A stretch of DNA of 64,000 nt from contig NZ_CAMVPN010000003.1 in NCBI RefSeq assembly GCF_947169325.1, positions 1-64,000 of the forward strand, written 5' to 3'. The position numbers were made by a program, and so were the translations under genes. The notes under the pieces were generated by a model. That model was not told the DNA's origin and made no database searches. It saw only the letters and a program-made list of their open reading frames with translations. This DNA comes from an uncultured Methanobrevibacter sp. GTDB taxonomy: Archaea > Methanobacteriota > Methanobacteria > Methanobacteriales > Methanobacteriaceae. Shown piece by piece: positions 51,754-59,195 of this stretch. How positions within the stretch are numbered: the stretch's first letter is position 1; each line of letters starts with the position of its first letter.

Positions 51754-54700
51754 CTATCTGATTTTAATTTTAACAGTTTTGGTTACTTTGTTGTAGTAAG
51801 AGCCGCCGTTATATTTAATAACTGCTTTGAAAGTTCCTTTTTTAGTTAATTTGGTAATTTTAAATGTTGCCTTGCCTTTGCTGTTGGTTTTGGTAGTGTA
51901 TGTTTTACCTTTAACTTTTAAGGTAACTTTTGCTTTTTTCATTGCTTTGTTTTTGCTGTTTTTCAAGGTTATTGTGTATTTTTTGGTTTTTGTTGTTCTT
52001 TTGAATGTTTTTGCTTTAGCAGTCATTTTTGTTTTTTCCTTATTTATGGTAATCTTAACAGTTTTACTAACAGGTGAGTAATTTTCACTGTTGATTTTAA
52101 TAATAAGGTTTTTGGTACCTGCTTTAGCAGTTTTTAAGATGCTTGTAGTTAACTTTATTGAAGCGACTCCATTTTTGATGGTGGATGTTGCGATGTCTTT
52201 GCCGTTTAATGTAAATGTTACATTAACTCCATCAGTCACATTCACGAAATCAACATTGTATGTTCCACCATAGTTGATGACATACGCAGCATTTTTCGCA
52301 TTTATTGTAACATTTTTTAGATTTACGGTGAAATTAACAGGAATTTCAGCTCTTGTGATGTTATCGTCAATGTATGTAACATTGGCAGTGTTGGATCCAG
52401 CATCCAGGTTTGGAATAACAAGTTCTGCGATTCCTTCTTTTACCTCAGCGATATATTCGACATTATTGACTTTAACAGCCACTTTACCACTGTTCAATGG
52501 AGCTATGGCGCTGCTGTTTACCTGAACTTTAATGTTGATGTCATCGCCGTAGGTAACATCTTCAGCTTCAAGAATCTCCAGGCTTATTGTATCGTTTACC
52601 AATGGTTTATCACTTGAAACGTTGTTTAAGGTTAATCTGGCATCTTCATCAACGAATATGCAGTTTTCACCGTTGCCGATGAATTCGGAATCGCTGATGA
52701 TCATATCGCTCTCGGTTTCAATTGCTCCGCCGGATTCTATTGCGGTGTTGTTTTCCAGTAAAGTATTTTTTATTGTTAATGCTTCATAATTATAGATTGC
52801 TCCACCATATTTTGCATTGTTGTCTGTAAATTGGGAGTCTGTTATAGTTGTTTCACCGTCATTGTCCACTGCTCCACCATTTTCTTTTGCAGTGTTGCTT
52901 GCAAATTTGGAGAGTGTTATTGTCATGTCACTTTCAAAGTTGTAGACTGCTCCACCATTGTACTCGGCGGTGTTTTGTGTGAAGTTGGCGTTTGTTATTT
53001 CAATTTCACCATTATCAGTATTGATTGCTCCACCGAATCTTGCGGTGTTCTGTGTGAAGTTGGCGTTTGTTATTTCAATTTCACCATTATCAGTATTGAT
53101 TGCTCCACCGTATCTTGCGGTGTTTTGTGTGAAGCCTGTGTCTGTTACGGTTGTTTTTCCATAATCGTTATAGATTGCTCCGCCCAGTCTTGATGCAGTG
53201 TTGTTTGCAAATTGGCTATTTTCAATATTTGCTTCACCTCTGTCATTATCGATTGCTCCACCATATGCGGCATTGTTGTTTTCCAGTCTGCAATTATCCA
53301 TATCAAGGTAATATCTGTTTTCGATTGCCCCGCCGTATCTTGCGCTGTTTAGGGTGAAGTTGGTGTTTGTTATCTCCATTTCACCGTTGTCATTGTTGAT
53401 TGCTCCACCATATTCCTTTGCAGTGTTGTTTGCAAATTGGGAGTCTTTTATATTTATTTCATTGTCATAATGACTGATGACTCCACCATATTTTGCGCTG
53501 TTGTTTGCAAATAAAGAGTTAAAAATTTCCATATTTCCTGTGTTGTAGATTACTCCACCGTTGTAGTCCGCAGCATTGCATGTGAACTCGTCATCTGTTA
53601 GGGTTAGGCTGCCTCCTTCATTACGGATTACTCCTCCATATTTTGCAGTGTTTTGTGCAAAATGGGTGTTTGCTATATAGATGCTAACAACTTCCCCATT
53701 ATAGATTGCTCCTCCTTCGAATGCCCTGTTTTGTGCAAAGCTGGAGTTGTCTATATCTAATTGGGACACATCAGCATAGATGGCCCCTCCGGTCGGAGCA
53801 TTGTTTTGTGTAAATGAAGTATTCACAACACTTGCAATACTAGTTTTAACATATAGTGCACCGCCTTTTTCACTTGCTGTATTGTTTGTGAAATTACAGT
53901 TGATAACAGCCAGATTATTGTTTGTATAAATTGCTCCACCATTTTCAGCGTGATTGTTCTTGAATGAAACTTCTTCAATAATGCCATCGCCGCCGGCAGC
54001 TATTGCACCGCCGTTAATTGCAGAATTGTCAATAAATTCCACATTGAATATTATGTTTTCAAAGCCTTCAAAGAAATTAACTCCTCCGCCTGTAGGAGCA
54101 TTATTGTTGATGAAATTGCCGTTGAAGGTTATGTTGTGAGGAGTTTGTCTGTAGTTTATGCCCCCACCATTTAACGCTGCAGTATTGTTTATAAAATCAC
54201 ATGTGAATGTGCTATTTGTTGACACATCCTTGAATGTTATTGCCCCACCGTTTCCAACAGAGGCATCAACTTTTCCTAAAGCGCTGTTGTTTGTGAAATA
54301 ACAGGTAAAGTTATTGTTATTGGTGGTATTGTAGAAAAATATTGCCCCTCCACATGATTTGGCAACATTGAATGTGAAGTTTGAGTCGAATTTATTGTCA
54401 TTTGCCTTTTTGTAAAAAAAGATTGCACCGCCGTAGAGTGCGTAATTGTTTGTGAAAATGCTTTCAAAACTATTGTTTTCAGCCAAACTGTTGAAAAATA
54501 TTGCTCCTCCACTGGCTTTTCTTGCACTATTATTATAAAAGTCGGCAGAAATTATGTTATTGGAAGATTTAGCTTGGAAGCATAATGCTCCACCAGTTCT
54601 TTCAGTCGCATTACCTTCAAAATAGCCGGCAATTATTACACTATCAGTTTCATTGTTAAAGAATATTGCACCACCTCGGACAGCACAGTTATTAATAAAA

Positions 54701-56019
54701 ATGGAGTTGATTTCACAATTTGAAATATTGCCATCAGTTCCTTGCCAGTAAATCGCACCTCCATCGGATTCTGCTGTATTGCTGGAGAATTTACAGATAG
54801 TTACTTTCCCAGCAGTTCCTTGCCAGTAGACTGCACCGCCATCGGATTCTGCTGTATTGTTGGTAAAGTGAGAGTCGTTAACTGTTCCATTAAATGCATT
54901 CCAGTAGACTGCACCACCATTGTCTGCTTGGTTATTGGCGAAGCTAGAGTTGTTTGTTATTCCATTATATGCATACCAGTATATTGCACCACCATTGTCT
55001 GCTTGGTTGTTAGTGAAATTACAATTGGTTAGTGTACTATTACTTCCTTCCCAATAGACTGCACCACCATTATCTGCCTGATTGTTCATGAAATTACAGT
55101 TGTTTGCTAATCCATGTCTTTTTTGCCAGCTGATTGCACCACCATTGGACCCTGTGTTGTTTATGAACTCGGAGCTGTTCACGATTCCATTTTCTCCTTC
55201 CCAATAGACTGCACCACCGTCGTTTCCATTATTTTTAATGAAACTGCTATTATTTACAGAACCCTCAAGAGCATTGAGGTCCCAGAAAAGTGCACCACCA
55301 TTAATTGAGGTGTTATTTGCAAAATTGGAGTTGTTAATTGTTCCATTATATGCATTCCAGTAAACTGCGCCCCCTCTTTGTGATCCTTGGTTGTTGATGA
55401 AGTTACAGTTGTTTATTGTTCCATTAGCAGAATTTGAATCCCATTGGACTGCACCGCCACTAAATTTTGTTGCGGTGTTGTTTATGAAATTGGAGTCGTT
55501 TATTGTTCCATTAACTCCGCACCAGAAGACTGCACCTCCCCTTAGTTTTGCATAGTTGTTGGTGAAGTTACAGTTGTTTATTGTTCCATTAGCTCCATAC
55601 CAGCAGATTGCACCGCCATTATCAGTAGCATTACCATTTATGAAGTTAATATTTTTTAATGTAACGGTGTTTGCCGTAATATTGAATATTCTTGCAAGTC
55701 CTGCTCCATTGATTGTGTGTCCTTGTCCGTCAACATTAAAATTGGCCTTGTCAATCACGATTCCAGTTGTATAATTGGAATCCTTTTCAGGATTATAAGT
55801 GTAATCTTTTGTTAATTGTATTGTGCTTGTTGTTGAGTTGGTAATTTCTGCATTTAAAGTTGAAAAATCGCTAATCTCATTTTCGCCATTGGATATTTCT
55901 TCAGTATTTATGTCGGTTTGCGCTACTATTTCATCAGATGCATTATCTGCTGCACTTATGCAAGATAAACTGATTAAAGCAAATAAAATCATCGCAGCTA
56001 TTATGACTTTATGTTTAAT
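51754..56019 (-). CDS. Giant adhesin-like beta-helix surface protein with Ig-like C-terminus
   Basis: Dozens of FxNNxAxxGGAIY/NG(G)A repeats, signal peptide, C-terminal module near-identical to the 44.4-kb gene; start possibly ATT 56019 (ATG alternative at 55992). Confidence 0.9.
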   Translation of the reverse strand: MKHKVIIAAMILFALISLSCISAADNASDEIVAQTDINTEEISNGENEISDFSTLNAEITNSTTSTIQLTKDYTYNPEKDSNYTTGIVIDKANFNVDGQGHTINGAGLARIFNITANTVTLKNINFINGNATDNGGAICWYGANGTINNCNFTNNYAKLRGGAVFWCGVNGTINDSNFINNTATKFSGGAVQWDSNSANGTINNCNFINNQGSQRGGAVYWNAYNGTINNSNFANNTSINGGALFWDLNALEGSVNNSSFIKNNGNDGGAVYWEGENGIVNSSEFINNTGSNGGAISWQKRHGLANNCNFMNNQADNGGAVYWEGSNSTLTNCNFTNNQADNGGAIYWYAYNGITNNSSFANNQADNGGAVYWNAFNGTVNDSHFTNNTAESDGGAVYWQGTAGKVTICKFSSNTAESDGGAIYWQGTDGNISNCEINSIFINNCAVRGGAIFFNNETDSVIIAGYFEGNATERTGGALCFQAKSSNNIISADFYNNSARKASGGAIFFNSLAENNSFESIFTNNYALYGGAIFFYKKANDNKFDSNFTFNVAKSCGGAIFFYNTTNNNNFTCYFTNNSALGKVDASVGNGGAITFKDVSTNSTFTCDFINNTAALNGGGINYRQTPHNITFNGNFINNNAPTGGGVNFFEGFENIIFNVEFIDNSAINGGAIAAGGDGIIEEVSFKNNHAENGGAIYTNNNLAVINCNFTNNTASEKGGALYVKTSIASVVNTSFTQNNAPTGGAIYADVSQLDIDNSSFAQNRAFEGGAIYNGEVVSIYIANTHFAQNTAKYGGVIRNEGGSLTLTDDEFTCNAADYNGGVIYNTGNMEIFNSLFANNSAKYGGVISHYDNEINIKDSQFANNTAKEYGGAINNDNGEMEITNTNFTLNSARYGGAIENRYYLDMDNCRLENNNAAYGGAIDNDRGEANIENSQFANNTASRLGGAIYNDYGKTTVTDTGFTQNTARYGGAINTDNGEIEITNANFTQNTARFGGAINTDNGEIEITNANFTQNTAEYNGGAVYNFESDMTITLSKFASNTAKENGGAVDNDGETTITDSQFTDNNAKYGGAIYNYEALTIKNTLLENNTAIESGGAIETESDMIISDSEFIGNGENCIFVDEDARLTLNNVSSDKPLVNDTISLEILEAEDVTYGDDINIKVQVNSSAIAPLNSGKVAVKVNNVEYIAEVKEGIAELVIPNLDAGSNTANVTYIDDNITRAEIPVNFTVNLKNVTINAKNAAYVINYGGTYNVDFVNVTDGVNVTFTLNGKDIATSTIKNGVASIKLTTSILKTAKAGTKNLIIKINSENYSPVSKTVKITINKEKTKMTAKAKTFKRTTKTKKYTITLKNSKNKAMKKAKVTLKVKGKTYTTKTNSKGKATFKITKLTKKGTFKAVIKYNGGSYYNKVTKTVKIKIR

Positions 56020-57907: not shown

Positions 57908-58064
57908 GCAATAATTTATTCATTTTATTTCTAATAAGTATTTTTAATTTAAGGTAAATTTTACAGATTTGATGCAATTTTCTAATTCTATACAATATAA
58001 CATGTTAAAATTGAATTTACAGATTAAAATTCTAGTTATTTTATATGTTAAGTAGTTTAATAAA

Positions 58065-58089
58065 GGTATTGTGGGTTTTTGACCACTTA
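58065..58089 (+). promoter_or_regulatory. Leader element copy 2
   Basis: GGTATTGTGGGTTTTTGACCACTTA; 24/25 identical to 36202-36226. Confidence 0.5.
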
Positions 58090-58125
58090 GGTTTAAAATA
58101 TCTTAATTCAACACAGGTGATTTTA

Positions 58126-58200
58126 ATGAAAAAGGATTGGAAAATGTTTTTAGAAGTAACTTTAGAAATCGTTAAAATCATTGTTATGATTTTAAAATAA
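58126..58200 (+). CDS. Putative 24-aa hydrophobic peptide
   Basis: ATG preceded by AGGTGAT; MKKDWKMFLEVTLEIVKIIVMILK*. Confidence 0.4.
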   Translation: MKKDWKMFLEVTLEIVKIIVMILK

Positions 58201-58340
58201 CTGATTTTTAGGGCGGTATTTAGTTGTTGAATGTAAAGGAAAGAGTTTTGGTATTTTCTCTCTAGTGGGGTTCTTACCACAATTATGCTCAGAGGAGATG
58301 TAAATAAAATTTATATATGTGCTGTAATAAATAGTAATTT

Positions 58341-58420
58341 GTGAGAAAATCTCATGTGTTGAATTAAATTAATGGGGTTAGAATCATGTATTCTAGCTCT
58401 ATTCCTTTAAACTTGTTTTA
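58341..58420 (+). ncRNA. Candidate small RNA, tandem copy 1
   Basis: TATA box TTTATATAT at 58310; TGAGA-AAA-TCTCA hairpin; 14-bp stem AATGGGGTTAGAAT/ATTCTAGCTCTATT; T-rich 3' end. Confidence 0.5.
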
Positions 58421-58482
58421 ATTTCATTTTATATTCTTATTATATGTATTTTTCATTGAAAATTATTAGTTGGTTAACGTTT

Positions 58483-58504
58483 ATATATCTCTTGGGAGAT
58501 ATAT
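58483..58504 (+). promoter_or_regulatory. Palindrome over TATA region of candidate sRNA copy 2
   Basis: ATATATCTC-TTGG-GAGATATAT perfect 9+9. Confidence 0.45.
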
Positions 58505-58509
58505 TACTT

Positions 58510-58593
58510 TGAGATTTAATCTCGTGAATTGTATTGAATTAATGGGGTTAGAATCATTGATTCTAGCTCTATTTCTTTAAAATCTTTTTTTTA
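58510..58593 (+). ncRNA. Candidate small RNA, tandem copy 2
   Basis: TATA box TTTATATAT at 58480; GAGATT-T-AATCTC; 15-bp stem AATGGGGTTAGAATC/GATTCTAGCTCTATT; ends in CTTTTTTTT. Confidence 0.5.
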
Positions 58594-58655
58594 ATAAATT
58601 TTCAATTATCTTGTTTTCAAAGTATTTTTAGGATGAAGTTTAAATTATAAATTGT

Positions 58656-59195
58656 ATGTCAAATGAAGGTTTAGATGATTTAAGATATGAGCTGGAACTT
58701 AAGAATGCTGAAATTGATGAGCTTATGATGGATCTTCAAAACAAGATTGAGGAAATCAACAAGCTGAAGCTGTATGCAACAAAATTGAAATACGAAAAGA
58801 AAAATCTTGAAGACAAATTGGATACCAAGATAGACTATGACAAGTCCCAAATGAAGGAACTGGATGACTTGACTGAAAAATTAAGGGAAAAAGATGCAAT
58901 CATTGAAGATAAGCAGGATCAGGTTAAATATTTAAGATCCCTGATTGACGATTACAGACAACAGCTAAGTCAAAACACCGAAAACCTTGAAGTTCAGCTT
59001 AAGAAAATCACCAAAACCTATGAAAATCTGCTTGAGCAGAAGGATGCAATTATCAAAAAGCAGGATGAAGAAATATCCAATCTAATCAAATCCAAAGAAG
59101 AAATTGTAAAATCAAATAAGACAAATGTCATTAGTTTGAAATTGCAAAATGAGAAGTATCAGGAAATCATTGATAAATTAACAAAAACTAATTAA
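58656..59195 (+). CDS. Coiled-coil protein
   Basis: Continuous heptad-like E/K/L pattern; ATG start. Confidence 0.7.
   Translation: MSNEGLDDLRYELELKNAEIDELMMDLQNKIEEINKLKLYATKLKYEKKNLEDKLDTKIDYDKSQMKELDDLTEKLREKDAIIEDKQDQVKYLRSLIDDYRQQLSQNTENLEVQLKKITKTYENLLEQKDAIIKKQDEEISNLIKSKEEIVKSNKTNVISLKLQNEKYQEIIDKLTKTN

Follow-up and report, generated by a model that had tools for sequence, protein, structure and literature searches.

What do two short structured RNA genes, arranged in tandem near nop5-flpA of an uncultured Methanobrevibacter sp., act on? The window, i.e. the whole stretch of 64,000 nucleotides (nt) of contig NZ_CAMVPN010000003.1 analysed here, had received a first-pass annotation in which the pair was taken as an independent, duplicated family of small RNAs (sRNAs). 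The family is indeed structured and duplicated, but the free-standing view turned out to be incomplete, as the first unit (sRNA1) is the antisense partner of a peptide gene immediately upstream. We consider it quite probable, on the basis of sequence comparisons, that positions 58040-58592 of this methanogen form a type I toxin-antitoxin-like locus, with sRNA1 as candidate antitoxin, the second unit (sRNA2) as orphan paralogue and the peptide as candidate toxin. Support is strong for antisense pairing and for coding; expression and toxicity of the peptide are predicted.

A peptide gene and its downstream antisense RNA

A repeat search revealed a 22-nt stretch in sRNA1 that is complementary at 20 positions (91%) to the leader of the predicted peptide messenger RNA (mRNA), the pairing spanning the Shine-Dalgarno region. 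Each of the leaders (-32 to +6) of 27 loci of the family described below was then hybridised in turn with all downstream regions, using simple duplex folding energies. Cognate combinations gave a mean of -22.7 kcal/mol compared to -12.6 kcal/mol for non-cognate ones, as would befit the antisense RNA of a type I system; none of 20,000 permutations was as good, and 23 of the 27 leaders preferred their own downstream region. An earlier run with a longer leader had the same outcome. The loci are related by descent, and permutations within subgroups of near relatives, which address kinship only in part, reached the observed sum in 164 of 20,000 cases for five loci (about 1 in 120) and in 4 of 20,000 for each set of seven. 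In the subgroups of four to five loci and for the five loci of one genome, the permutations reaching this sum corresponded to the share expected from the single best arrangement. The true assignment thus stands out among near relatives, and relatedness alone therefore does not explain the cognate preference.

The same relationship is visible when the region upstream of nop5 is aligned with relatives. Three further loci retain the open reading frame (ORF) at the peptide level, along with a conserved 3' untranslated region (UTR), and the leader has changed along with the sRNA (TCAATACAAATTC versus GAATTTGTATTGA in one locus, TCCATTTAATTTAT versus ATAAATTAAATGGA in another). The 5' part of the sRNA, with the hairpin whose variation had been read as RNA-level selection, owes most of this variation to co-evolution with the leader of the peptide mRNA.

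The ORF, encoding the 24-amino-acid (aa) peptide MKKDWKMFLEVTLEIVKIIVMILK, is located on the same strand about 140 bp 5' of sRNA1 and carries a Shine-Dalgarno sequence. The earlier statement that no ORF is present holds for both RNA units but not for the element, as this conserved 24-codon frame lies just beyond the region that had been annotated. Differences between homologous ORFs fall mostly at third codon positions, and dN/dS values of 0.09-0.32 in five subgroups point to purifying selection on the peptide. The helical hydrophobic moment is raised in most peptides (16 of 26 with P<0.05 compared to shuffles), and the charged residues lie along one face. With 24-40 aa and the pattern of an amphipathic helix in most members, the family falls within the range of the hydrophobic peptides of <60 aa typical of type I systems. 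A search of the PDB for a relative of the peptide yielded none that was convincing.

The two ends of the peptide mRNA are predicted to pair with each other. Comparison of UTR pairs and separate alignments of the two UTRs showed two helices with changes on both sides, P1 (TGTAGG/CCTACA, TGAAGG/CCTTCA, TGGAGG/CCTCCA) and P2 (CCACT/AGTGG, CTTGCC/GGCAAG, CTTAC/GTAAG, TTATCT/GGATAA). The fold-back energy was -16.4 for cognate and -11.7 for non-cognate ends, again with none of 20,000 permutations as good, and the ends were closed in the minimum free energy (MFE) folds of 7/7 homologous mRNAs.

Features of the locus and of its two RNA units

Most of the previously described layout of the RNA units could be reproduced. 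The TATA boxes TTTATATAT are present in front of both units, which recur at a spacing of 170 nt as 115-nt units starting at 58305 and 58475 with 77% identity. Both contain the short 5' hairpin (TGAGA/TCTCA in the first, GAGATT/AATCTC in the second copy) and the near-invariant stem of 14-15 bp; only the T-rich end did not hold for copy 1, where it is weak (TTGTTTT). Compared to dinucleotide shuffles, none of which folded equally well, the folds reached z-scores of -4.0 (sRNA1) and -6.1 (sRNA2). Other members of the genus have homologues that are laid out alike, and an RNA model of the sRNA stem finds them in other genomes. Covariation within the stem is modest, RNAalifold showing one pair changed on both sides. 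As stated before, the units have no tRNA features in a tRNA search and match no known guide RNA model in Rfam; neither at the gathering score nor at E<=5 was any Rfam match obtained.

Table 1 Predicted features of the locus in window coordinates; the ends of all RNAs are predicted.
Feature	Position	Strand	Evidence
TATA-like box TTTATATGT of peptide mRNA (putative role)	58040-58048	+	sequence; most homologues have a similar stretch in this position
Predicted peptide mRNA, 217 nt, ends mutually paired	58068-58284	+	MFE folds; permutation test
Closing helix P1, 5' strand ATTGTGG	58068-58074	+	pairs with 58277-58283; co-varies
Helix P2, 5' strand CCACT	58083-58087	+	pairs with 58264-58268; co-varies
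Antisense target in leader, including Shine-Dalgarno AGGTGAT (58115-58121)	58103-58124	+	22-nt inverted repeat; cognate duplex
Candidate toxin ORF, 24-aa amphipathic peptide	58126-58200	+	28 homologous loci; dN/dS
Conserved structured 3'UTR with 3' strands of P2 (58264-58268) and P1 (58277-58283)	58201-58284	+	aligned in homologues
TATA box of sRNA1	58310-58318	+	sequence; several homologues have a similar box at similar spacing
sRNA1, candidate antitoxin	58338-58419	+	fold; homologues
sRNA1, 5' hairpin	58342-58354	+	
sRNA1, antisense stretch	58346-58367	+	
sRNA1, stem	58371-58403	+	
sRNA1, U-rich end		+	
TATA box of sRNA2	58480-58488	+	sequence
sRNA2, paralogue	58508-58592	+	fold; poor fit of antisense stretch to local leader

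The second unit fits the local leader poorly (-13.2 kcal/mol compared to -21.2 kcal/mol for sRNA1) and is therefore probably an orphan antitoxin-type RNA. No second target of sRNA2 in its own genome was convincing; only one match with two mismatches inside nop5 and two matches with three mismatches turned up, which were read as chance. Tandem units are also seen at another locus (L123, reverse strand, ~480-1000), where two sRNA-like units follow one peptide ORF (MKKEYEFIINILIEIVKIIIMIFK), as in the window.

As a separate observation, one arm of the sRNA stem (GTGGTTAGAA; at 58371-58385 GGGGTTAGAATC, in relatives GTGGTTAGAATC) is complementary to the invariant mRNA motif TTTTGACCAC (58075-58087); this second pairing is clear in genus g1 (-11.5 kcal/mol) and not clear in g9 (-4.6). 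This motif itself pairs with the 3' end of the mRNA, and the arm of the antitoxin sRNA may thus mimic the 3'UTR strand, which we leave as an idea.

Distribution of the cassette and alternative explanations

The RNA model of the sRNA stem and hidden Markov models (HMMs) of the peptides (A1, A4, A5) were run over family, class and phylum sets, the latter two being the same 152 genomes (Methanobacteria); most genomes are metagenome assemblies. DNA search, RNA model or peptide HMM alone led to 28 loci in 22 genomes from two genera of Methanobacteriaceae: 13 genomes of the genus of the window with one locus each and 9 genomes of a second genus with 15 loci, five of which reside on the single 2.94 Mb contig of G085. 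The own genome holds only one full copy. The peptides comprise 24-27 aa or, where they are extended at the N-terminus, 39-40 aa; they share a core like MKxxxKxILxxxLEIIKIIIMxxK and start with ATG, TTG or GTG. At every locus an sRNA antisense to the own leader is found 110-160 nt 3' of the ORF, and each of the several loci detected by the peptide alone has an sRNA-like unit downstream.

The cassette is inserted next to nop5, argB and other genes without a common neighbour, and a conserved gene neighbour was rejected as the flanks differ. The proximity to nop5-flpA, to which the first-pass annotation had drawn attention, is accordingly incidental, and a role as guide RNA for these genes was likewise dismissed in view of the unrelated sites and the lack of an Rfam match. 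Most nop5 loci lack the cassette and join nop5 almost directly to a coiled-coil gene, so that the cassette behaves as one unit in its presence and absence. At least five sRNAs occur without ORF, namely at the argB site of L010, L012 and L008a, at L016 (UTR remnants, no ORF) and as sRNA2 in the window; an ORF without sRNA was not found among the loci searched. Such an asymmetry, with sRNAs but not ORFs found alone, would follow if the peptide does harm in the absence of its RNA. Carriage by viruses or plasmids was rejected: a 17-nt motif of the 5'UTR matches five viral contigs, in unrelated sequence without the cassette, and searches returned no sRNA core, no peptide in phages and no 39-aa homologue in plasmids.

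With regard to the neighbourhood, copies of AAGTATTTTTA at 57936-57946 and 58620-58630 flank the cassette, and loci lacking it keep one copy, or two about 50-60 nt apart; the motif could be native and regulatory, or else a scar left by recombination or insertion. Between cassette and pyrD lies a 179-aa coiled-coil-like ORF (58656-59195) without Pfam match, which is found beside most nop5 loci. Further upstream, adjoining fibrillarin, 51754-55992 encodes an adhesin-like protein of 1412 aa that contains Chlamydia PMP repeats, beta-helix and Ig-like domains.

Several points weigh against a toxin-antitoxin locus. Scans of the peptide against Pfam, NCBIfam and PADLOC gave no match, such short peptides yielding no independent function; the duplex of sRNA1 with its target has two mismatches across the Shine-Dalgarno sequence; two loci, L194 and L147, are weakly above background (z -0.9 and -1.7), though complementarity is visible in their sequences; and a harmless membrane peptide under sRNA control would look much alike. 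Repression by the sRNA of such a regulatory or physiological, non-toxic membrane peptide, i.e. antisense control without toxin-antitoxin biology, would be served equally by the evidence for pairing and coding. We nevertheless regard it as unlikely, since the features seen here, namely patchy presence, several mutually specific copies in one genome (five in G085), sRNAs persisting alone where ORFs do not, and an mRNA that folds back, typify toxin loci. A family of free-standing, trans-acting sRNAs with unrelated targets and a merely coincidental leader match would agree with the sRNAs lacking an ORF and with the missing evident local target of sRNA2, but is very improbable, as it is contradicted by the permutation test and as cognate co-variation over 27 loci and the fixed spacing of ORF and sRNA exclude coincidence for copies of the sRNA1 type. 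Equally improbable is a non-coding, MITE-like mobile repeat with internal inverted repeats mimicking antisense pairing, for although some orthologous sites have the cassette while others lack it, and two AAGTATTTTTA motifs flank it, codon-level purifying selection, the single full copy in the own genome and the lack of visible terminal inverted repeats speak against it.

Proposed mechanism and comparison with known systems

Conservation of the ORF, antisense co-variation, 5'-3' co-variation and patchy presence of the cassette were computed here; transcription, translational block and toxicity are inferred. For a type I toxin-antitoxin system, we propose that a short mRNA would encode the 24-aa amphipathic, membrane-type peptide and that its paired 5' and 3' ends would keep the full-length mRNA poorly translated, with the leader exposed in nascent or processed mRNA. 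sRNA1, with a promoter of its own 110 bp 3' of the ORF and on the same strand, would offer its 5' hairpin and linker as complement to the leader and Shine-Dalgarno sequence, and binding would stop ribosome loading and/or tag the mRNA for decay. Upon exhaustion of sRNA1, the peptide would be made and act on the membrane like TisB-type peptides. sRNA2 may serve as a spare antitoxin-type RNA of other specificity, either a relic of or a guard against another allele.

The cassette is a previously undescribed gene pair in gut methanogens. According to a paper from 2025, type I systems are known only from Proteobacteria, Firmicutes and Tenericutes, plus a first cyanobacterial case (PMC12390103). An archaeal type I system was not found in the open-access literature searched, where absence in this open-licence scope is no proof. 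TAfinder 2.0 for TADB 3.0 uses a lower limit of 30 aa (PMC10767807), and 24-aa peptides would therefore be excluded. It appears likely that we are dealing with the first known archaeal family of type I toxin-antitoxin systems, with a peptide family of its own, a downstream sRNA on the same strand and a fold-back toxin mRNA. In methanogens of rumen and gut, a genome may carry as many as five copies that are mutually specific. If so, RNA-controlled toxins would extend to a second domain of life, and fold-back toxin mRNAs with antisense antitoxins would have arisen in, or spread to, Archaea too. For methanogens, in which the targets of only a few sRNAs are known, the cassette offers a test system that is ready for use, and its product is a candidate for an endogenous peptide that arrests the growth of methane-producing archaea of the gut.

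Among known systems, tisB/istR-1 of E. coli (and also shoB/ohsC, zorO/orzO and dinQ/agrB) resembles the present locus in its very short amphipathic hydrophobic peptide, its neighbouring separate sRNA gene and its short complementarity to the 5'UTR, TisB having 29 aa and istR-1 pairing over 21 nt (PMC4147584, PMC8309996). No sequence relationship to this group was found. Toxin and sRNA genes are divergent there and binding of the antitoxin takes place upstream of the start region, whereas at the present locus the sRNA gene follows the peptide gene on the same strand, pairing extends to the Shine-Dalgarno sequence and the host is an archaeon. With hok/Sok and aapA/IsoA, the locus shares the long-distance 5'-3' pairing of the toxin mRNA (PMC6733600), here predicted and co-varying. 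These systems differ in that the antisense RNA is encoded opposite the toxin gene and the peptide is unrelated, the present one matching neither Hok nor any other Pfam or NCBIfam family; a mok-like leader ORF was not identified at the present locus. Within Archaea, sRNA162 of Methanosarcina mazei, which has no part in a repeated peptide/sRNA cassette, is alike in being an sRNA that acts by antisense pairing on 5'UTRs (PMC3510493).
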